Shown: piece by piece, positions 1-26,352 of the stretch
Position numbering within the stretch: the stretch's first letter is position 1
Layout of the letters: each line of letters begins with the position of its first letter
DNA from: Syntrophobacteraceae bacterium CG2_30_61_12
Lineage (GTDB): Bacteria > Desulfobacterota > Syntrophobacteria > Syntrophobacterales > DSM-9756
DNA: 37,705 bases
Direction of reading: 5' to 3'
NCBI GenBank assembly: GCA_001873705.1
Contig: MNZR01000204.1
Coordinates: 1 to 37,705 of the forward strand
The notes under the pieces: generated by a model
The model's input: the letters and a program-made list of their open reading frames with translations, nothing else
What the model was told of the DNA's origin: nothing
The model's database searches: none
Made by a program: the position numbers and the translations under genes

Positions 1-71
1 TACCTGACGATCTTGGCTTGACCTCCTTGGCCTCTCCACTCAAAGTGATTGTTCCAAAAGATGCACACCCA

Positions 72-115
72 TTACCAAATGCGGGCAAGATGCCCGCGAT
101 CCCGGGAAAGCGCCC
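72..115 (+). repeat. Partial copy of dispersed gcgggcaagatgcccgcg element (copy D)
   Basis: attaccaaatgcgggcaagatgcccgcgatcccgggaaagcgc matches the core of the copies at 22387, 28366 and 37411. Confidence 0.75.
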
Positions 116-210: not shown

Positions 211-356
211 CTACGAATGGCTTGGCCTCTCCACTCAAAGAGGTTGTTCCAAAAGATCCACACCCATGTGCTTTCTACTGACCGGCATAGCTCAGAGCCG
301 TTTCAATCCTCCAAATGTCGACGAGACGTAGGGTCTTCCCTGACCCGTTGCCCTAT

Positions 357-1571
357 TCATGGATTCCAAAGTCTTATCGTAAAGATTTCTTCGTCCTCGA
401 TCAAATCAGGAAAAGTCCCATTGTGTTGCCGCATAACCTTAACGATTTTTCGAGGTATCCCCATCCCCATATGCTCAAGATAACCGTAATCTCTCATAAC
501 GTCCTTAAGCAGTTGATTCCGCGCTGAACGGCAGCCCGTTATCATCCGTTGCGGCGTAATGCCGTTCGGGAGCCGGCCTGGGGAAATCACCTCCAAGCGA
601 TCCGCATAAATGGACAACTCCACGGTGGTGCCGGACAGGAGGTAGTCCCGGTGCACAAGAGCGTTGACGATGGTCTCTCTGACCGCTTCTTCCGGATAAG
701 TCCGTTTTTGCTCACGCCTTGCACCGTCCGCCAGTGTTGCCGTAATTTCGGTGTTTCTTCTTGTGAATGCCACCGCTTGTTCAACCAGCCCATTGTCAAC
801 CAGCCCTTCACTTCCCAATAAAGCCGTCATTGGCCCGCGAATAGCCGAGCGTTCCTTGGCGGCGTAATCTTTTTCCTTGCCGGGATAGGCGACAGCATCG
901 ATCCCGGCTTGAGGCAAAAAACGATTCGGGTTGCTGCCAAACAGCAGCAAGCCGGCAACGGTCGCCGGCTTCCGGTCGCCCTCTTCAACCAGAAATTCGG
1001 TGTTCAGAAGCAGGCTTTGCCAAGCATCCGCATCATTGACATCTGGTGTTTCCTGAGAACGAATGCGGTGAAAATAGTCGGTCAACCGACGATAATCGAA
1101 ATCATTTGCGGACGAACCCGATACGCCGCGCACCTCTAACCGAAAGGCTCCGCGCTGCTGGAACAATCGCTCCAATTCCTCGGCACCGGCTTCACGACTC
1201 TGTGTTCCGACACGAATATAGTAGGTCCGGTGGTTATTGTGCCATAAATGGTGGACCGCCCATCCGCGTTCAACGTGGACAATCGCCACATCTTTCCCAC
1301 CCTCCACATCACGGATAACTTCATAGTACGGAATCAACTCAGGGCGAATCTTATCCCTGGAAGTATTCATCACCCATTCCTCCAGGCGATCCCTGGTTAT
1401 CCCCGCAACACTCCCGTCATCATCGATTCCCAGGATCACCCGACCGCCCCGCAAATTTGCAAACGCAACCAACTCTTTCGCCAATGCCCGGTTGTCCATG
1501 GTGTCACGCTTGAACTCAACGCCGGAGTTCTCGCCATTCTTGATTAGATGTAACAGCTCAGTCTTTGTCAT
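357..1571 (-). CDS. AlbA_2 (Schlafen-type) putative DNA/RNA-binding domain protein with C-terminal HATPase_c_4-like domain
   Basis: N-terminus GVEFKRD...GGRVILGIDDDGSVAGI is typical of AlbA_2; PEEAVRETIVNALVHRDY...LEVISPGRLPNGIT is typical of the C-terminal ATP-binding domain. RBS-like AGAGGA overlaps the stop of the upstream gene. Confidence 0.85.
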   Translation of the reverse strand: MTKTELLHLIKNGENSGVEFKRDTMDNRALAKELVAFANLRGGRVILGIDDDGSVAGITRDRLEEWVMNTSRDKIRPELIPYYEVIRDVEGGKDVAIVHVERGWAVHHLWHNNHRTYYIRVGTQSREAGAEELERLFQQRGAFRLEVRGVSGSSANDFDYRRLTDYFHRIRSQETPDVNDADAWQSLLLNTEFLVEEGDRKPATVAGLLLFGSNPNRFLPQAGIDAVAYPGKEKDYAAKERSAIRGPMTALLGSEGLVDNGLVEQAVAFTRRNTEITATLADGARREQKRTYPEEAVRETIVNALVHRDYLLSGTTVELSIYADRLEVISPGRLPNGITPQRMITGCRSARNQLLKDVMRDYGYLEHMGMGIPRKIVKVMRQHNGTFPDLIEDEEIFTIRLWNP

Positions 1572-1582
1572 TGTATTTCCTC

Positions 1583-4261
1583 TTAGAAGCCGTACTTTAA
1601 GCGGCGCATTTCAAAAGCGTCCTTCCCCCCTTCTAGAACCTCCTCAACCATTTCACGAACCAGGCGTATGTCGATGGAGCCCATATGTTCCCGAGAGAGC
1701 CTGGCTTGCCCTTGATCTGCTTCACCGCACGCGGTTAGCCCGACGATCAATTCCGCATCTCCCAACACCGGGATGTTGGCATTGTGGGTGGCAAAAACAA
1801 ACTGGCGGCGGCGTTTTTCTTCCCTCATTTTGGGGACTACTCGGTCGGAAATGAAGCGATTATCAAGATCGTCCTCAGGCTGGTCCACAACCAAGGGCGC
1901 ACTTGACTCAAGCAACAATAGAAGGAGGACAGCTGTCGCTTTCTGGCCCGTGGAGAGGTCTTCCAGGGTCTGCCACAAGGGGGGTTGATCGTCATCGGCA
2001 ACATTTAATTTTATAGCCGTGGTCGGCGGCAGTTCCAATTCCTCGATTTGCATGATGATCTCCGGTTTTGCCTGGATCATGCGTTCGCCTTGGCTGGACG
2101 GGATGTTGAACCGCCGGGACAGCGCTTCCCGACCTTCTCTGCAAGCTGAAGCGAACAGCGGCAGCGAGAAGTCCGTGCTGGTTGTCAGCGTCTCAATCGC
2201 TTCCGACAATCGTCCGCCGATCTGATCGCGCAGAAGTTGAAACAGCGGCTCTCTGTTTGCACCTGCCGCCACCTCCACCAAAACCCGTCCCTCAAGTTTC
2301 CGGTTTACCTTTGCCGCCGCTCGTTCGATCCGGCGGAATTCCTCGGCCTTGACGTCCTCCCATTCGGAAAGCAGGTTGCGCCGTTCAGTTCCATGTTCCT
2401 TCAAGTCGCGCTGAAGCCGAGCCAGGCGTTCCTTTAGCGGGCGAAGTCCCTCAATTTGTCGGCGTAAGCGGATGAACTCGGCACCATCGATATTTGAGTT
2501 TTGCAGTTCACGCAAGATGGCCTCGGAGGCTTCCATGACCGCTTTTTTGCGTTCCTCCCACTGTGTTCGGATTTCGCCCAAGCCGGTCTTGGCCTTGTTG
2601 ATAGACTGTTCCATCTCGGCGGCCATTCGATCCATATCCTTGGTCAATTGATTCAGGATATCGTTCGCATCTCTCAAAATATCCCTTCCGGGAAGACCAT
2701 CCAGTGCTTTTTCGGAAATGAAGGCAAGGTCCACCGGAAGTGCGCCTCTAAACTGATTCAACAGTTCTTCAAAAGGGGTCAGTCGCTCCTCCGAGGTCTT
2801 AAGAACCCCTTCTTCCTGAACAATATGGCTCTGCTCCCGCAATTTTCCCTCGAGTCCGGCAGCCTGAAAGCGCCGCAACGTTTCCTCGAGGGCCGGCAAG
2901 CTGTTCAGGCGTTCCTCAATTTGGACAAGCTCTTCCTGGGCTTCAAGCAGGCGCCGGCGTGAACGCTCCAACTGCCGGCGGACACTGCTTTTTCGTTTTG
3001 GGATATCGGTATCATGCTCGACAAAACGGTCCAGAAGGCGGGTGAGTTTTTCTCGACTTTTCGTGAGTTCTGAAATTTCGTGTTGTCCAAATATTTCGGG
3101 CCGAGGGAGCACATCAGCAGGCGTCAGATTGAGAACGTTGCCGATTTCGTCTCTAACAACCGGCGGATTTGGAATCGTTCTTTCGATCAGGTAATCGCGC
3201 TGATTCGGATGGTACGATCGAACCAGGAGGGATATTTTAGTACCGCTTCGAAGCACCTGACGGATAATACCGTTATGACATTTGATGGCTTCTTCGCCGA
3301 GTGGGTCCACGCCAAGAACATACCGGATACTTTCAATGATTGTTGATTTTCCGGTTCCTCTGCCACCAATGAGCACATTCAGGTTTTCATTGAAATGGAT
3401 TGCCACACCATCTAGAAAGCCACCTTGCCACGTCACCGCAATGAACTTGGCATGCTCATCAGGTGTTGGATCAGTGGCCAGGCGTATCCTGGAAACCGGA
3501 TCCAGAAAGGCCTGTCTCAGTCCCTCGATGGTAACGTTTGACATCTTTATCCAGCAAGACGAACCAGGCTTTTCCAAATCCTCGGGGCTCGATACATCCT
3601 GCGCGTTGACAATCGCCACCGGTCGATCACGAAAATAGTCCCGATTCTTGTTTTGTATGATCGGTCTGACGTTATCGGGAACATCCTCGACCGGTCCCGG
3701 CAATGCGCAGGCCAACAGATGAGGCCAGGTCCAGGCAGCGATCCTTGACTGGCCCGACAGTCTATTGAGAAGCCCGCCCTCACTGGCGACATGAGCCGCG
3801 ATACAAATACTCCCCCAGCACCCGTGGGATTCCTTCAAGAACTCCACAACATCGTATTTGCCGATCGGCGATACCGTTTCATCTTGGTGGATGCCGCAAT
3901 CACCCAGGATCCGCTCCAATGAATGCGCATCCTTGGCCGGATCAAACAAGCAGAGCAAATGCACGCCATCTTTACTAACCGCTTCGAAGCCGGGAAACAC
4001 GATGATTCCTGCGTCTTCCGCCGCCTGGCGCAGTGATTGTGTCGACTGCGCTCGATAATGATCGGTGATCCCGATGACTTCAATGCCGATTCTCTGACAC
4101 GCCTCCACCATCGCCGCATTGTAATTCGCCTCATTGCTGAATGCCGTCGCTTTGTTGTGACGCACAATATACTCAAACGGATTCACCTGCAGCGCGCTAC
4201 GATAGAAACGAGCGCCGCAAGGCAGCTTTCGGGCAGCCAAGATAGCTTCTGTACTCCTCAT
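1583..4261 (-). CDS. PHP-like domain / SMC-type ABC ATPase (TrlF/ppl-like)
   Basis: N-terminal PHP-like segment (IGITDHYR, FPGFEAVSKDGVHLL); Walker A GGRGTGKST; ABC signature LSTGQKAT; Walker B PLVVDQPEDDLDN; central coiled coil. Start placed at MRSTEAIL (4261) instead of the ORF-track start at 4330. Confidence 0.85.
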   Translation of the reverse strand: MRSTEAILAARKLPCGARFYRSALQVNPFEYIVRHNKATAFSNEANYNAAMVEACQRIGIEVIGITDHYRAQSTQSLRQAAEDAGIIVFPGFEAVSKDGVHLLCLFDPAKDAHSLERILGDCGIHQDETVSPIGKYDVVEFLKESHGCWGSICIAAHVASEGGLLNRLSGQSRIAAWTWPHLLACALPGPVEDVPDNVRPIIQNKNRDYFRDRPVAIVNAQDVSSPEDLEKPGSSCWIKMSNVTIEGLRQAFLDPVSRIRLATDPTPDEHAKFIAVTWQGGFLDGVAIHFNENLNVLIGGRGTGKSTIIESIRYVLGVDPLGEEAIKCHNGIIRQVLRSGTKISLLVRSYHPNQRDYLIERTIPNPPVVRDEIGNVLNLTPADVLPRPEIFGQHEISELTKSREKLTRLLDRFVEHDTDIPKRKSSVRRQLERSRRRLLEAQEELVQIEERLNSLPALEETLRRFQAAGLEGKLREQSHIVQEEGVLKTSEERLTPFEELLNQFRGALPVDLAFISEKALDGLPGRDILRDANDILNQLTKDMDRMAAEMEQSINKAKTGLGEIRTQWEERKKAVMEASEAILRELQNSNIDGAEFIRLRRQIEGLRPLKERLARLQRDLKEHGTERRNLLSEWEDVKAEEFRRIERAAAKVNRKLEGRVLVEVAAGANREPLFQLLRDQIGGRLSEAIETLTTSTDFSLPLFASACREGREALSRRFNIPSSQGERMIQAKPEIIMQIEELELPPTTAIKLNVADDDQPPLWQTLEDLSTGQKATAVLLLLLLESSAPLVVDQPEDDLDNRFISDRVVPKMREEKRRRQFVFATHNANIPVLGDAELIVGLTACGEADQGQARLSREHMGSIDIRLVREMVEEVLEGGKDAFEMRRLKYGF

Positions 4262-4460
4262 CTTAATCCCTTTGCTTGAGGCTTTTCTGGACCTCGGCTG
4301 AGGCCTGGGTGACGATAAAAGAGCGCCCAAAGCGGCAGAGTTATTCGTTGACGATTCTTTAGCTCCAGCTTCCAGTGTGGTATCCCGTATGTCCCATCTC
4401 TCGTGAAGTCAATGGCGCCTTCTTTTATACCTGTTTAGCTTGAGAAATTACGTTTTGTGT

Positions 4461-4532
4461 TCCCGCGGAGGCGCTGAGAGCGCGGAGAAGAGCCCTGAAA
4501 TCAACCTCCGCGGCTCTGCGTCTCCGCGCGGA
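4461..4532. repeat. Imperfect inverted repeat (cgcggaggcgctgagagcgcggag ... ctccgcggctctgcgtctccgcg)
   Basis: Arms at ~4461-4487 and 4505-4532 are near reverse complements. Confidence 0.7.
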
Positions 4533-4891
4533 AATGAAACTTTTAAGCCTTCACAAGGATATCTTACCATCATGACCATCAAATCGCAGCTCTCCGGCGA
4601 GAATTTCAGAAAAAATGCAGTCCCGCACCGGGGGCTGAAGGATTGCGATTATCCAGACTGTTTCTTCGTCAGGGTCAAACGAACGGGGTGGTCGGTTCCA
4701 GTGATGAGGGATACCCGCCGAGGACCGAGATGGTCAGGACATGGCCCCGCCAACAAGGCGATTGTTCCAGAACCAGCGGAGGCTTATCGATGGGCGGCCA
4801 ACCCCATTGACGGCGGCGGCCCCTGGGATCGGCCGCCTATTCATCACGCCCGATCCAGCGCCGCGGCGTCACGCCGCCCCCAAAGGTGGTT

Positions 4892-6481
4892 TCACGGGGT
4901 GGAGACGGGAGCGTAACCGCTATCTTGGGGGTTCGAACGGCGCCGGCGATGGTCCTTGAGCATCCGGTCGAGGCCGAACTTTTTCACCCGATAGCCCATT
5001 TGCCTGGAAGTGAGCCCCAGATGCTGGGCGGCCCGGGATTGGATCCAGCGATGGCGTTCCAGGGCGGCGAGGATCTCTTTACGTTCCAATTCCTCCAGTC
5101 GCGAGAGCGGCTCCGGGTCGAGCAGCGCCGCATCCTTCGGCCCAAAGATCAGAAAGGACGGCAGTTGCTTGATATCGATCAACGGCCCTTCCATCATGAT
5201 GGCCAGCCGCTCGATCAGGTTTTCCAGTTCGCGCACGTTGCCGGGCCAGGGGTAGTCTTGCAGCACCTCGATGCTCCTGGGCGTGAAATGCAGCGGCTTG
5301 CCGTATTCCCGGGCCGCTTTTTCGAGGAAATAGTCGGCCAGCAGCGGAATGTCTTCCCGGCGGTCGTGCAGGGGCGGAACCTGAATCGGAAACACATTCA
5401 GCCGATAGTAGAGGTCTCCCCGAAACGCCCCCTCGTTCACCGCTTCGGCCAGGTCCCGGTTGGTGGCGGCAATCATCCGCGCGTCCACCCGCCGGGTCCT
5501 GGTCCCGCCGAGCCGCTCGAATTCGCGATCCTGCAGGAAACGCAGCAACTTGGCCTGGAGCTTGAGACTCAGCTCCCCGATTTCATCAAGGAAGGCGGTA
5601 CCACCGTCGGCTTCTTCAAAACGGCCGGGCTTGGCCTGGGTCGCACCGGTGAAGGCGCCCTTTTCGTGACCGAACAATTCCGATTCCAACAGGGCTTCAG
5701 GCAGGGCCGCGCAATTGATCTTGACGAAGGGACAGCGCGCGCGCGTGCTCATTTCGTGGATGATCCGCGCGATCAGGGTCTTGCCTGTCCCGGATTGCCC
5801 CAGCAGCAGTACCGAAGCGCGGCTGGGAGCCACCTTATCAATCAGCTGCTGCAACTCCATCATGGCCGGACTCACCCCGACCATGAAGAAGTGGTTGTAT
5901 TTTTCCGAAACCTCGGCCTTCAGGGCCAGGTTTTCCCGCGCCGCCGTTCGTTCCCGTTCCCGCACCTGGAGGTTCAGGCTGACGAATTGCGCGATGAGCG
6001 TCGCCACAATGGTGAGAAAACACATGTCTTCTTCAAAAGACACTTCCGACTCGAACAGGCGGTCCACGCTGATCACCCCGATCGGCCGCCCCTGCAGCTG
6101 AATAGGCACACCGATGAAAGCGATGCTGCCCTTTTCGATGTTGCGGCTTCGGGTCTTGTTGAGAAACAGCGGTTCCCGACTGATGTCCGGGACCACGAAC
6201 GGCTGGGCGGTGCGAAAAATGAGGCCGGTGATGCCTTCATCGGGACCGTAGATGCCGCGCTTCTTTTCCTCTTCCAACATGCCGTGGGAGGCGTGAATCT
6301 TGAGATACCCGGTTTCCGGGTCACGCAGCGTCACCGTGGCCCGTTCCATGGCCAACGACCGCGACAAGATCCGCAGCACCGATTCCAGGGTCTGATCGAG
6401 CTGTAGCGCCTGCCCGGCCATCCGGCTGATGTCGTAAAGCACCTTGAGTTCCAGTTCACTGAGTTTCGCTTCCATGCTCAA
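4892..6481 (-). CDS. nifA: NifA-family sigma-54-dependent transcriptional activator (GAF-AAA+-Fis HTH)
   Basis: GAF domain with [32 protein letters not shown]; Walker [15 protein letters not shown] loop; C-terminal [25 protein letters not shown]. Confidence 0.85.
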
Positions 6482-6986
6482 TGGTTAGGCAAAGATCATG
6501 CCCAAAGCGGAAAACCGGCACCATCCGAAGCAGCGGCACTTGGGCAGGTCATCCTGGGATCGGCCGAATCGAACCCGCAACCGCCTCCGACTGGCGCTGG
6601 ATTCTCATGAAATCTTGATCAGCCGCGAATCGGTCCGGAGCCATCACCAGGTTTTTCCTCTAGCCTTCGACTCCCCGTCCCTCCCTCACCCGACTTCTCC
6701 CAGGTGCTCTGGAAGGCTCGCCGGTTCCGTTCCGGCTGGAACAAAAACCGACTTCCAGAGGCAGATTGATACATATTTGTTCCCTAACCGAGAACCAATT
6801 AGATTCCCCGGCCGAATGAGCGCGGTCTCCGGCGCGGCACCCTCCCCTTCCCGTCTGGGCTATTTCGGTCCCGGCACCAACGCTTTTCAATCCGTCCCGG
6901 ATGCCCTATACTGGTCGCGGTGTTGATCCATTTCAGCGGACTCCGTGCGGCGTGGCCGGCCGGTGGAGCGGGACCAAGGAGCATTC

Positions 6987-7817
6987 ATGAGTGAAATCTA
7001 CGGCAAAGTGGCGCTGGTGACCGGTGCCGCCGGCGGTATCGGCCGCCTGATGAGTCTCGATCTGGCCGGTCGCGGCGCCCGCCTGGTGCTGTGGGACATC
7101 GATCAGGCGGGGCTGGCCCGGGTCAGCGAGGAAGTCGCCGCCATGGGGCGCGAAGTCCATGGCTACCGTTGCGATCTGTCGAGCCGGCAAGCGATCCATG
7201 AAGCGGCCGACCGGGTCAAACAGGAAGTGGGCCCGGTGGATATCCTGGTGAACAATGCCGGGATCGTCACGGGTCGGCATTTTCTGCAATGCAGCGATGA
7301 GCAGATCGAACGGACCATGGCCGTAAACCTCATGGCCCACTTCTGGACGCTGAAGGCGTTTCTGCCGGACATGGTGCGGCGCGACCAGGGCCACATCGTC
7401 ACCATCGCTTCGGCCGGAGGACTGGTTGGAGCCAACCGCCTGGTGGACTACTGCGCTTCCAAGTTCGCCGCGGTCGGTCTGGACGACGCGCTGCGCATGG
7501 AACTACGCAAGAACCGCTGGAACATTCGGACCACGGTGGTCTGCCCGTATTTCATCAAGACCGGCATGTTCAGCGGGGTGCGCACCCGCTTTGCCGCGCT
7601 CCTGCCACTGCTGGACGAAGACCGGGTGGCAGCCAAGATCGTCGCCGCCATCGCCGCCGACAAACGGCGGGTGGTGCTGCCCGTCACCGTGTATCTGGTC
7701 TGGCTGTTACGCCTGCTGCCGGTAGAGGCGTTCGACTGGTGCGCCGACCTGCTGGGGATCAACGCCGCCATGGACCGATTCCGCGGGCGCCGGCGGGAAG
7801 CGCAAAACCGGCCATGA
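6987..7817 (+). CDS. SDR-family oxidoreductase
   Basis: TGAAGGIG cofactor motif, NNAG motif, YCASK active site; RBS aagga upstream of ATG 6987. Confidence 0.9.
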   Translation: MSEIYGKVALVTGAAGGIGRLMSLDLAGRGARLVLWDIDQAGLARVSEEVAAMGREVHGYRCDLSSRQAIHEAADRVKQEVGPVDILVNNAGIVTGRHFLQCSDEQIERTMAVNLMAHFWTLKAFLPDMVRRDQGHIVTIASAGGLVGANRLVDYCASKFAAVGLDDALRMELRKNRWNIRTTVVCPYFIKTGMFSGVRTRFAALLPLLDEDRVAAKIVAAIAADKRRVVLPVTVYLVWLLRLLPVEAFDWCADLLGINAAMDRFRGRRREAQNRP

Positions 7818-7846
7818 TCATCGTTTCGGCCACCGCAAAAGGCTTT

Positions 7847-7913
7847 CACCACGGAGACACGGAGAACACGGAGAAAACCGTTGGACTTTCTCTGGGTCCT
7901 CCGTGCCTCCGTG
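7847..7913. repeat. Intergenic inverted repeat (ccacggagacacggagaacacggag ... cctccgtgcctccgtggg)
   Basis: Read directly; arms pair and flank a ~24-nt loop. Composition resembles the repeat at 4461-4532. Confidence 0.65.
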
Positions 7914-7980
7914 GGTGAGCTTGTTTGAAATGGCTCTAACGATGATCAAGACCGCAAAACCGAGTTGATAGGAGTGGCCC

Positions 7981-9678
7981 ATGACCCCCAGCGAGCGGGT
8001 GGATGCATCAAGGGAGATAACCGCGGCGGTCGATCCGGCTCAAGGCGCGGCGCCAAGACGCGCCGCCGAACACCGGCCGGAAGCCATCCCGGCGGCGCTT
8101 TCCCGGGCGCGTCAAGCGCAACGCGAGTGGGCCGCGCGGCCGATTCGAAACCGGGTGCGGGCGCTGCGACCATTGCGTCGATTCCTGGTCGATCAGGCCG
8201 ATCGCATCGCTGCCGTGATCGCGCGCGACACCGGCAAGACCCGGGTCGAAGCCCTGGCCACCGAAGTCATGCCGGCGCTCATGACCCTCGGCTACGCCTG
8301 CCGCAAGGCGCCCCGGTTTCTCCGCCCACGCCCCCAGCTTCCCGGTACCCTGCTGCTCTGGCACAAGTGGAGCCGGATTGTGCGCGTGCCCTATGGGGTG
8401 GTGGCGGTCATTTCGCCCTGGAATTACCCCTTCGCCATTCCCTTCGCCGAAATCGTGCCGGCGCTCCTGGCCGGTAACGCGGTCCTGTTCAAGGGCGCCG
8501 GTCAGACCCCGCGAGCGGCCGCGGTGCTCGACGAATGCCTGGCTTCGGCGGCCCTTCCGCAAGGACTCTTCACCCGCTTCGAACTCCCTGGAGCGGTGGC
8601 GGGGCCCGCTTTTCTCGCGGCCGGGATCGACAAGCTGTTTTTTACCGGATCGGTGGCCGTGGGCCGGGAACTCATGCGCCAGGCCGCCGCCACCATCACC
8701 CCGGTGAGTCTGGAACTGGGCGGCAACGACGCCATGCTGGTGGCGCCCGACGCCGATCTCGACCGCGCCGCCCGGGGCGCGCTCTGGGGCGGACTCCAGA
8801 ACTGCGGCCAATCGTGCGCCGGAGTGGAACGGATTTATGTGCACCGAGACGTCTACGAGCCGTTTCTGGAGCGGCTGAAAAACCTGGTGGAACGCCTTCG
8901 GGTCGGCCCGGACCGGGCCTTCGACGTGGATCTCGGCGCCCTCACCACGGTGGAGCAGAAGCAAACCGTCAGCCGCCACGTGGACGACGCCCTGGCCCGG
9001 GGCGCCCGTCTGTTCGCCCGGTCGCCGGAGCCGCAAGCGCAGCCTCAACCGCAGCAGCAACCGCCGGAGCATGGGCCGGAAAACGGCCTTTTTTACCCCG
9101 CCACCGTCCTCACCGAGGTGACCGAAGACATGCTGGTGATGCGCGAAGAAACCTTCGGACCGGTGCTGGCCGTGGCCCGGGTGGCGGACATGGAAGAAGC
9201 GGTGCGGCGGGCCAACGATTCCCAATACGGCCTCACCGCCTCGGTCTGGAGCCGCAACCCCGATGCCGCGGAGCAACTCGGCCGGCGCCTGCAGGCCGGG
9301 GTGATCACCCTGAACGATCACCTGATGAGCCACGGCATGCCGGAAACCCCCTGGGGCGGTTTCAAGCACTCCGGAATCGGCCGCACCCACGGCCGGATCG
9401 GCTTCGATGAGATGACCCAGCCGCAGGTGATCGTCCACGACCTGCTCGCCTGGACCAAACGCGATCTGTGGTGGCACCCCTACAGCGAGCCGTTATATCG
9501 AGGCCTGCGCGGGGCGATCGTGGTCATTTACGGCGCGGGTTTATGGGAACGGCTGCGCGGCTTGACGCCGCTCGCCCGCATCTTTCCGCGAATATTCACC
9601 AACCGTTGGGATTCCGGCGCCGGGGGGAACTGGTGGCGCCGGCGCTGGAGCAGACAGTCGCCGCGGCGCCGGCCTTAG
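7981..9678 (+). CDS. Aldehyde dehydrogenase family protein
   Basis: PWNYPFAIPF, LELGGND (catalytic Glu), GQSCAG (catalytic Cys), EETFGPVLAV, PWGGFKHSGIG. Confidence 0.93.
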   Translation: MTPSERVDASREITAAVDPAQGAAPRRAAEHRPEAIPAALSRARQAQREWAARPIRNRVRALRPLRRFLVDQADRIAAVIARDTGKTRVEALATEVMPALMTLGYACRKAPRFLRPRPQLPGTLLLWHKWSRIVRVPYGVVAVISPWNYPFAIPFAEIVPALLAGNAVLFKGAGQTPRAAAVLDECLASAALPQGLFTRFELPGAVAGPAFLAAGIDKLFFTGSVAVGRELMRQAAATITPVSLELGGNDAMLVAPDADLDRAARGALWGGLQNCGQSCAGVERIYVHRDVYEPFLERLKNLVERLRVGPDRAFDVDLGALTTVEQKQTVSRHVDDALARGARLFARSPEPQAQPQPQQQPPEHGPENGLFYPATVLTEVTEDMLVMREETFGPVLAVARVADMEEAVRRANDSQYGLTASVWSRNPDAAEQLGRRLQAGVITLNDHLMSHGMPETPWGGFKHSGIGRTHGRIGFDEMTQPQVIVHDLLAWTKRDLWWHPYSEPLYRGLRGAIVVIYGAGLWERLRGLTPLARIFPRIFTNRWDSGAGGNWWRRRWSRQSPRRRP

Positions 9679-24754: not shown

Positions 24755-25386
24755 TGTCTCTCCCTTTCTCTGGACGTGATGGACGACTGGTAGCGACTCA
24801 AGCGGCAGGTGTTGTTGGGCTGATTTCGAACCGATCCCGCCTCGGACGACCGGCACGGCGACCGCTCGCCCCCCTCTTGCCATTTGGTGCGGCGCCGCGA
24901 AACCCGGCTGGAACCGGTGGTAACAACGGCACCCAAAGCGGCGCCCGGTAAACCGGGGGGGGTTGGAGTGGACCCGTTGGACTGAGTCAGCCGGGTGGAT
25001 CCGGTAAACTCGTCGGCGAGTCCATCCATGCCGCGGCAATGTCATGAAATCCCAAGAAAAACACAGAGGTGGAAGATAGTAGAAAAGATCACAAAAAGTC
25101 AAGGGAATTCCTGGCCGGTCCGGCCCCAGACGCCCACAGTCCGCCGGAATCCGGATCTGGGTCCGAGACCCCGCCGCGATTTGCCGTTGATGACACCGCC
25201 TTATCATGGTAAATGAATGTTTTTCCCGGTCTGCCTCGCTTGCGAAGCTGCACGAGGATTTGCAGGCCAGGCAGCGCGGCCTCGGAAGGAAACGTTGATC
25301 GGAACGGTTCCGGATCGGAAGTTGCCGGCGCTGCTCCATGCGGGCGCCACATCCAGCGGTTTTTCAGGGTGCTCGGTAGAGTGAAC

Positions 25387-26352
25387 ATGGTTGAAGTCGA
25401 GAACCAGAACAGCCGGCAGCCACCGGCGCTGGCCGCGGCCATTGCCGGCTTTGCCGCCTACCTAACCAAGGAGCGCGGGGTGAGCCCCGAGACGCTGCGC
25501 GCCTACCGTTCGGACCTCCGCCAGTTTCGGGACTTCCTGGCGGTGCGCAAGGGGAACCGGGACCCCCGCCTGGACCAGATCGAAGACGCCGACGTCAGCG
25601 GCTTTCTGGCCCAACTCCTGGGTTCGGTCCAGAAATCCAGTGTCGGCCGTAAGCTCTCGACCTTGCGTTCGTTCTATCGCTACCTGCGCGAAATGGAAGT
25701 GATAACGAACGACCCCACCGTGACCGCCATGAGTCCGAAAACGGTACGCAAGGTCCCGGCGTTCTTGAACATCGACGATTTGTTCCATTTCCTCAACGCG
25801 CTCAAACAGAACGCCCACGCGGCCGCCAGTCGGTGGCGGCGCAAACGCAACTGGGCGCTGTTCGAATGCCTCTATTCGACCGGCATTCGGGTGAGTGAGC
25901 TGACCGGGATGGATTGCCCGGACCTGGAATCCGAGGAGGCGCTGGTGCGGGTCCGCGGCAAAGGGAACAAACAGCGCATCGTGCCGATCGGGGCGCCGGC
26001 ACTCGAAGCCATTGCCCTTTATCTGGAGGCGGTCACCAAGGAACTGGCGCCCGCCGATCTCGAGGGCAGCAAGGCTTTGTTTCGCAACGCCCGCGGGGGG
26101 CGCCTCAGCCCCCGGTCGGTGAGCCGGATCCTGGAACAGGAAATGCGTCGCTGCGGGCTTTGGCAGCACCTCAGTCCGCACGGTCTGCGCCACAGTTTCG
26201 CCACCCATCTGCTGAACGCCGGCGCGGATCTGAGAAGTATTCAGGAACTCCTGGGCCATGCCAGTCTTTCCACCACCCAGCGTTACACCCATGTGCATCT
26301 GGATCACCTGATGGAAGTCTATGATCGAACCCACCCCAGAGGGCGCAAGTGA
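25387..26352 (+). CDS. xerC: Tyrosine recombinase XerC/XerD type
   Basis: [51 protein letters not shown] with R, HxxR, H and Y catalytic residues; followed by hslVU. Confidence 0.9.

Follow-up and report, generated by a model that had tools for sequence, protein, structure and literature searches.

The trlF–trlG operon of a Syntrophobacteraceae bacterium, a candidate two-component virus-defence system

The genes trlF and trlG have been published as part of the Temperature Restricting Locus (TRL), trlR–trlF–trlG, of the insect pathogen Photorhabdus laumondii (Hapeshi 2020, PMC7554251). TRL is induced on a shift to 36 °C and stops growth, and its deletion abolishes the arrest. TrlG is required for growth arrest at this temperature, and mutations in TrlG relieve it. 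The trigger found in Photorhabdus is temperature; no trlF mutants arose among the arrest-relieving mutations (PMC7554251), so that a requirement for TrlF is putative. Outside Photorhabdus, the operon was found in Yersinia ruckeri (PMC7554251).

The paper on RptR describes a two-gene module, “RNA-binding protein + AAA-like ATPase,” of unknown function, which is flanked by hsdS and hsdR in each of four genomes (PMC12255303). Ppl of Escherichia coli is a PHP exonuclease system encoded by one gene (PMC12904381), and Schlafen–histidine-kinase proteins occur in BREX loci (PMC12839542). The initial annotation of the locus studied here raised the possibility that no catalog lists its two genes together. 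This is correct insofar as neither TrlG nor the trlF–trlG pair has a model of its own in PADLOC-DB 2.0.0, but as a unit the pair was already known, having been published as TRL genes (PMC7554251) and, judging by the description, noted in PMC12255303.

Organization of the operon and its flanks

The window, that is, the whole stretch of DNA analyzed, comprises 37,705 nucleotides of contig MNZR01000204.1 from Syntrophobacteraceae bacterium CG2_30_61_12. Positions 357–4261 contain two intact minus-strand ORFs, trlF (4261–1583) followed by trlG (1571–357). The features of this region are as follows.

1583..4261, minus strand: trlF, TrlF-family PHP–SMC-like ABC ATPase (892 aa; NF045780, 518.5 bits versus a cut-off of 350)
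357..1571, minus strand: trlG, AlbA_2 (Schlafen) + HATPase_c_4 protein (404 aa; Pfam; AlphaFold model pLDDT 89.8)
1569..1585, minus strand: junction TAAGAGGAAATACAATG, with trlF stop, ribosome-binding site, and trlG start (sequence)
26..72, plus strand: dispersed 47-nt repeat, copy 1, beside the operon (sequence search)
221..267, plus strand: dispersed 47-nt repeat, copy 2 (sequence search)

The trlF gene starts with an ATG at 4261 and has its stop codon at 1585–1583; trlG starts with an ATG at 1571, and its stop ends at 357. On the minus strand, the junction reads TTC TAA GAGGAAATACA ATG, with a gap of 11 nt, and the ribosome-binding site of trlG, AAGAGGAA, overlaps the trlF stop, the last base of TAA being common to both. 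The layout first proposed, two minus-strand genes 11 nt apart with the downstream ribosome-binding site overlapping the upstream stop, is thus borne out by the sequence. Tight spacing is common among trlF–trlG pairs, the stop-to-start distance falling between −60 and +60 nt in 73 of 93. A promoter scan gave three promoter-like sites versus 2.9 in shuffled sequences, hence no excess, and a terminator scan gave eight terminator-like sites versus 5.8, a difference within about 1 s.d.

The contig begins at window base 1, which cuts short the left flank of the pair. Upstream of trlF, no gene for the regulator TrlR (79 aa) was found; the interval up to the next gene holds a single ORF on the strand of trlF, 44 aa long. 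The nearby dispersed repeats mentioned in the initial annotation are indeed present; the genome has 14 sites of the 47-nt element, most of them close to the ends of contigs.

Domains and conserved residues of TrlF and TrlG

The NCBIfam TrlF model (NF045780) spans the window TrlF end to end (profile positions 2–944 of 944). The Ppl model (NF042955) gives 188.8 bits, far below its cut-off of 1000, which identifies the ATPase as TrlF rather than as Ppl, both of which types the initial annotation had named. Pfam detects the ATPase halves (SMC_N/AAA_21) together with a PHP match that is weak and below the Pfam cut-off (E = 0.0014), in agreement with the earlier description of gene 1 as a PHP-like domain joined to an SMC-type ATPase. 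Foldseek searches with the TrlF model, which has a pTM of 0.49 and is indicative only, returned the PHP proteins EndoQ and RNase AM beside SMC-type heads. The assignment of gene 2 as an AlbA_2 plus HATPase-like protein is likewise confirmed by Pfam. The domains and motifs of both proteins are listed below.

3482..4213, minus strand: PHP-like domain of TrlF, about aa 17–260 (Pfam PHP E = 0.0014; Foldseek matches to EndoQ and RNase AM)
4181..4195, minus strand: degenerate PHP motif I, ALQVN for D-x-H-x-H, aa 23–27 (alignment of 164 TrlF proteins)
3341..3367, minus strand: Walker A GGRGTGKST, aa 299–307 (G299, G300, G302, G304, K305, S306, and T307 invariant in 23 relatives)
1943..1957, minus strand: ABC signature LSTGQ, aa 769–773 (L769, S770, G772, and Q773 invariant)
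1859..1894, minus strand: Walker B/D-loop LVVDQPEDDLDN, aa 790–801 (mostly invariant)
1188..1532, minus strand: SLFN_AlbA_2 domain of TrlG, aa 14–128, with E14, E19, K21, N39, and D51 (PF04326, E = 1e-18; Foldseek matches to SLFN13/14 and the SAMD9 tRNase domain)
369..632, minus strand: HATPase_c_4 (GHKL-like) domain of TrlG, aa 314–401 (Pfam E = 3.5e-21; Foldseek matches to histidine-kinase-type ATPase domains)

The ABC ATPase motifs of the window TrlF are intact, with Walker A, signature, and Walker B all conserved. In the PHP domain, HxH is changed to QxN and the final DxH histidine is absent in the window TrlF and its 45-row clade, whereas HxH is kept in 110 of 115 other proteins. Three canonical metal ligands are thus lost in this clade and the remaining ligands are retained, a loss that is newly described here. 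The canonical PHP HxH ... DxH is not part of the TrlF family definition, the curated definition being the HMM. Since these ligands are gone, the domain is probably not a normal metal-dependent nuclease and probably serves in sensing or regulation. The idea that PHP decay follows from the gain of TrlG was rejected as a rule. Some plasmid-borne TrlFs carry ALQVN and have no TrlG, and many TrlFs with an intact DFHTH motif do have TrlG; the decay is therefore a clade trait.

Among the fold matches of the TrlG model are DIP2311, SLFN13/14, and the SAMD9 tRNase domain. The window TrlG contains the Schlafen-like carboxylates E-x4-E ... D as E14, E19, and D51, which we take to be the equivalents of human Schlafen residues. 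An invariant full triad was rejected upon alignment of 86 TrlG proteins. Only E14 is invariant across the family, E19 being Q in 18 of 86 and D51 missing in 14 of 86; in the window’s closer TrlG set, E14 and E19 never vary and D51 hardly does. The arrest-relieving mutations of Photorhabdus TrlG fall on conserved residues in both domains (S16, V35, A36, R126, P318, N335, and G354). The first four are identical in the window TrlG, and P318, N335, and G354 correspond to P335, N352, and G371.

Pairing of trlF with trlG and genomic neighborhoods

Pairing was surveyed in whole-genome draws from five phyla, each centered on a genome known to carry TrlF and together totaling 1830 genomes, with TrlF counted above the family cut-off. 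TrlF occurs in approximately 6% of these genomes (26/395, 28/399, 12/347, 21/343, and 30/346). An AlbA_2 gene lies directly behind TrlF in 64 of the 124 TrlF genes with room downstream, and in the window’s own clade 15 of 16 decidable rows show TrlG pairing. Rare adjacency of homologs would have counted against the initial proposal of a conserved two-gene unit, plausibly a sensor with an effector; these numbers support it. Distances among the TrlF proteins track those among their TrlG partners (86 pairs, r = 0.93; maximum upon permutation, 0.08), which indicates co-divergence. Adjacency is not due to chance, because the genome of the window contains a second TrlF + AlbA_2 pair and because AlbA_2-family ORFs are otherwise sparse (19 ORF matches over approximately 2.4 Mb of fetched loci, some being fragments of the adjacent gene). 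Pairing of trlF and trlG is thus real and widespread.

Not every TrlF has this partner. One clade of 36 TrlF rows is wholly without TrlG, and several of its members adjoin type I restriction–modification (RM) genes. Lone TrlF is found on plasmids and in phage records, and six TrlFs encoded on plasmids share the degenerate PHP motif of the window TrlF and are not followed by TrlG. At one locus of the window’s clade (L066), a TIR/SpbK-like gene stands behind TrlF in the place of TrlG; this replacement, seen in one relative, is also new here.

The genes flanking trlF–trlG pairs match 116 PADLOC families, compared with 27 for controls (106 genes in each set; counts are of families, not distinct proteins). 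Pairs often lie within established anti-phage clusters. On an IncC plasmid, the pair is flanked by hsdS and hsdR; in a BREX-1 locus, it stands between pglX and pglZ; and in E. coli, it accompanies type I RM genes in Tn7-like cargo. Carriage of pairs on plasmids was seen. In E. coli, the pair occurs in 38 of 5426 genomes; among the matches listed, it directly adjoins type I RM genes. The second pair in the window’s genome stands after an HmaA gene (1441 bits). The enrichment near known defense genes predicted earlier is thus found for pairs across genomes, but not in the window’s own right flank, where no defense gene was present among those checked.

Proposed function and comparison with known systems

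On balance, we think that the TrlF–TrlG operon probably is a two-component anti-invader system of the abortive-infection type. TrlF, in which a PHP-fold domain precedes an SMC/Rad50-like ABC ATPase, would be the sensor. TrlG, with its Schlafen-type AlbA_2 and GHKL-like ATPase domains, would be the effector that halts growth, the probable means being cleavage of tRNA or other RNA after licensing by TrlF. In the window’s clade, the PHP domain would have a sensing or regulatory role instead of acting as a metal-dependent nuclease. We infer the phage trigger, the signaling from TrlF to TrlG, and the nuclease activity and substrate of TrlG.

It is unlikely that TrlF alone is the working defense enzyme, with TrlG as an accessory or regulator. 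Such a role would resemble that of Ppl, which acts as a single gene (PMC12904381), and would suit the TrlG-less clade, with several members beside type I RM genes, and the lone TrlFs on plasmids and in phage records. It is at odds with the QxN motif and missing DxH histidine, with the near-constant presence of TrlG in the window’s clade, and with the mapping of the Photorhabdus arrest to TrlG, not TrlF. The carriage of pairs on plasmids, the growth arrest that accompanies TrlG activity, and the tight coupling of the two genes could also reflect a toxin–antitoxin or anti-plasmid module that stabilizes mobile elements, TrlF restraining a toxic TrlG. We consider this quite unlikely, as TrlF is large, ATPase-like, and often alone, unlike a typical antitoxin, and its neighbors are RM/BREX-type systems.

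A locus that controls growth in response to stress or temperature, as proposed for Photorhabdus, rather than a defense system, would account directly for the induction and arrest at 36 °C and for the loss of the arrest upon deletion (PMC7554251). This is very unlikely, given that the pair is patchily distributed, on plasmids and inside RM, BREX, and Tn7-like cargo, the TIR protein replacing TrlG, and the absence of an adjoining TrlR gene in the window; the temperature arrest is equally explicable as autoimmunity of a defense toxin. Finally, AlbA_2/RecG-C-terminal proteins are frequently annotated as DNA-binding transcription regulators, and the function of DIP2311, the closest solved fold to TrlG, is unproven; the Schlafen-like triad is, moreover, incomplete in part of the family. 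That TrlG is a regulator and not a nuclease is nevertheless highly improbable in view of the conserved carboxylates in the window’s closer set, the additional fold matches to SLFN13/14 and the SAMD9 tRNase domain, and the TIR protein that takes TrlG’s position behind TrlF.

The two-component anti-invader reading can be extended, more tentatively and somewhat short of probable, to a widespread, unnamed immune system. Its SMC-type sensor, which in one large clade would have lost a PHP nuclease of its own, would license a nuclease of the Schlafen type or a TIR enzyme whose gene has taken that nuclease’s place, and the Photorhabdus temperature restriction would be autoimmunity of this system. The pair is a good, not wholly new, candidate virus-defense system. 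About half of the TrlF genes sampled are paired with TrlG. If this is a defense system, it would tie bacterial Schlafens to an SMC-type sensor, give a simple explanation for the puzzling growth-arrest locus of an insect pathogen, and provide a natural example of a sensor without its own nuclease that acts via a separate effector.

Compared with TRL, the window has the same two genes, with trlG (AlbA_2 + HATPase_c_4) directly downstream of trlF and the AlbA_2 domain at aa 14–128 in both TrlG proteins. It differs in lacking the upstream TrlR gene and in having a TrlF from the clade with the degenerate PHP motif, where a Yersinia ruckeri plasmid encodes a TrlF with DFHLH; nor is the window pair known to have the temperature role of the Photorhabdus TRL. 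The module adjacent to RptR (PMC12255303) appears to be the same pair, matched by description only. Ppl shares with TrlF the architecture of a PHP domain and a coiled-coil ABC ATPase, but the window TrlF scores far below the Ppl cut-off (188.8 versus 1000 bits), has a partner gene, and lacks the PHP HxH. TrlG shares the AlbA_2 fold with SLFN13/14, its E14, E19, and D51 being placed like the Schlafen carboxylates, and differs from Schlafen/AlbA_2 RNases in that the triad is not conserved in all TrlG proteins and nuclease activity is predicted only. Its GHKL-like C-terminal half resembles the Schlafen–histidine-kinase proteins of BREX loci (PMC12839542), and trlF–trlG also occurs inside BREX. 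PARIS (AriA/AriB) and WonAB are likewise two-gene operons of an ABC ATPase and an effector, built from other ATPase families and other effectors (TOPRIM and PD-(D/E)XK).

Organization of the window operon

The trlF and trlG genes lie close to the left end of the contig, whose first base is base 1 of the window:

4261–1583, minus strand: trlF, intact, 892 aa
1571–357, minus strand: trlG, intact, 404 aa
26–72 and 221–267, left end of contig: 47-nt repeat with 14 genomic locations, most of them close to contig ends

As the initial annotation had read it, the two minus-strand genes are separated by 11 nt, and the ribosome-binding site of trlG overlaps the trlF stop codon. The dispersed repeats that it placed beside the operon are likewise real, the 47-nt repeat being a scattered element that interrupts the assembly. 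To the right, checks covered a sigma-54 activator followed by genes of metabolic, secretion-ATPase, translation, and other kinds, and none of these is a defence gene. A GC-rich stretch upstream of trlF (4440–4580; cgcggaggcgctgagagcgcgg ... ctccgcggctctgcgtctccgcg) has the look of a repeat element, and a gene at 25213–26352 resembles a tyrosine integrase/recombinase.

The trlF product is, by sequence, a TrlF-family ATPase, matching NCBIfam NF045780 over its whole length at 518.5 bits (cut-off 350) and the Ppl model at only 188.8 bits (cut-off 1000). TrlG comprises SLFN_AlbA_2 (aa 14–128) and HATPase_c_4 (aa 314–401) domains.

Pairing of TrlF and TrlG across phyla

With the window TrlF as query, genomes of 84,980 species yielded 29 loci spread over many phyla, with an AlbA_2 gene directly downstream in nearly all of those having an intact neighborhood. 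In five phylum draws, 64 of the 124 TrlF genes fetched with room downstream were paired, bearing out the proposal that the two-gene arrangement is conserved among homologs.

TrlF in five phylum draws. Each draw contains its center, a known TrlF carrier, so that one genome per draw is nonrandom.
Phylum of; genomes with TrlF over the cut-off; paired TrlF genes
Window (own phylum); 26/395; 15/27
Pseudomonadales; 28/399; 22/32
Acidimicrobiaceae; 12/347; 5/12
Pirellulaceae; 21/343; 9/21
Rhodothermales MAG; 30/346; 13/32

For 73 of the 93 pairs, the stop-to-start distance fell between −60 and +60 nt; larger overlaps may be artefacts of mechanically set ORF starts. Pairwise distances of TrlF and TrlG correlated strongly (r = 0.93, 86 pairs; largest value in 500 permutations 0.08), with kinship of the species ignored. 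In L020, close to the end of a contig, TrlF is followed by an opposite-strand TrlG, which may reflect an assembly inversion, and L021 shares 66% identity with the window in TrlF and only 51% in TrlG, a possible exchange of TrlG between operons.

FastTree analysis of 164 TrlF proteins separated 36 never-paired TrlFs from 128 others (92 paired, 32 not, and 4 undecided). The window's clade (18 rows, support 100) holds 15 paired, 2 undecided, and 1 unpaired row; in the last, L066, a TIR_2 protein matching PADLOC spbK is encoded 18 nt behind TrlF. Another TrlF, L172, which carries a DLHIH motif and belongs to the never-paired clade, has a TIR_2 gene (5570–6484) 46 nt behind it. This is evidence that TIR genes next to TrlF turn up again beyond the window's clade, not that swaps are frequent within that clade.

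Defense neighborhoods

TrlF–TrlG is a likely defense operon, a candidacy well supported by context. Annotated records place the pair as follows:

IncC plasmid pCFR-0b27: between hsdS and hsdR
V. parahaemolyticus pLH80-1: between pglX and pglZ of BREX-1
E. coli plasmid: within Tn7-like cargo that also carries type I RM
Y. ruckeri p17Y0189.1: HTH_73 gene upstream

Close relatives of the E. coli pair occur in 38 of 5426 E. coli genomes. The window's own genome has a second TrlF + AlbA_2 pair on contig C274, where it immediately follows an HmaA gene (1441 bits to PADLOC HmaA); a short way past the pair, at 7188–8843 of locus L012, lies a gene for a DUF4062 + HATPase_c_4 protein. TrlF genes without TrlG were found in a P2-like phage and in a Vibrio phage record; in PQ189346, a Vibrio phage record with a small tailless-phage genome, a TrlF split into two ORFs (1343–3959) adjoins an integrase.

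Enrichment near defense genes, expected of a defense operon, was observed: 116 PADLOC families were matched among 106 pair-flanking genes versus 27 among 106 control genes (threshold 1e-25; the counts refer to families, and different families hit the same proteins). The former, among those shown, include BREX, DISARM, HmaA, type III RM, type IIG, and AbiEi, and the latter are mostly kinase-like models.

Domain features and published relatives

A specific mechanism combining a sensor with a Schlafen nuclease seems plausible, and we lean slightly toward it. The AlphaFold model of TrlG (pLDDT 89.8) matched DIP2311 first, followed by SLFN13/14 and the SAMD9 tRNase domain. Across 86 TrlG proteins, E14, K21, N39, G48, E299, N303, H307, R308, N336, R351, N352, and G369 are fully conserved. 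Q replaces E19 in 18 of them, and 14 lack D51; within a set of 22 closer to the window's TrlG, E14 and E19 never vary and D51 hardly does.

In TrlF, the window and 44 further rows have QxN in place of HxH, motif I of the PHP domain (43 with the Q, all 45 with the N), and these 45 rows also lack the final DxH histidine; D67, H68, E93, H101, H157, and D222 are retained in 44 or 45 of them. Because of these two losses, the window's PHP domain is probably not a normal metal nuclease. HxH is retained in 110 of the 115 remaining rows. Motif loss is a clade trait; that it results from pairing is ruled out by plasmid TrlFs showing it without TrlG (L076, L079, L080, L081, L085, and L086).

The suggestion that the unit might be uncatalogued held only in part, since TrlF–TrlG is already published under another function: the trlR-trlF-trlG operon of Photorhabdus laumondii is switched on at 36 °C and brings growth to a halt (Hapeshi et al. 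2020, PMC7554251). Among 29 sequenced escape mutants, 19 had SNPs in trlG and none in trlF (PMC7554251). The Photorhabdus AlbA_2 domain spans 14–128 (PMC7554251), as in the window, and its TrlG residues S16, V35, A36, R126, P318, N335, and G354, mapped via the TrlF loci L178 and L082, fall on conserved positions; N335 corresponds to window N352 (kept in 86/86) and G354 to G371 (85/86). RptR has been reported with two clustered genes of no assigned function downstream of it, one for an RNA-binding protein and one for an AAA-like ATPase; in four genomes they lie between hsdS and hsdR (PMC12255303). E. coli Ppl is, according to a review, a PHP ssDNA exonuclease and antiphage protein (PMC12904381), and a BREX survey describes fusions of Schlafen RNases with a minimal histidine kinase adjoining BREX loci (PMC12839542).
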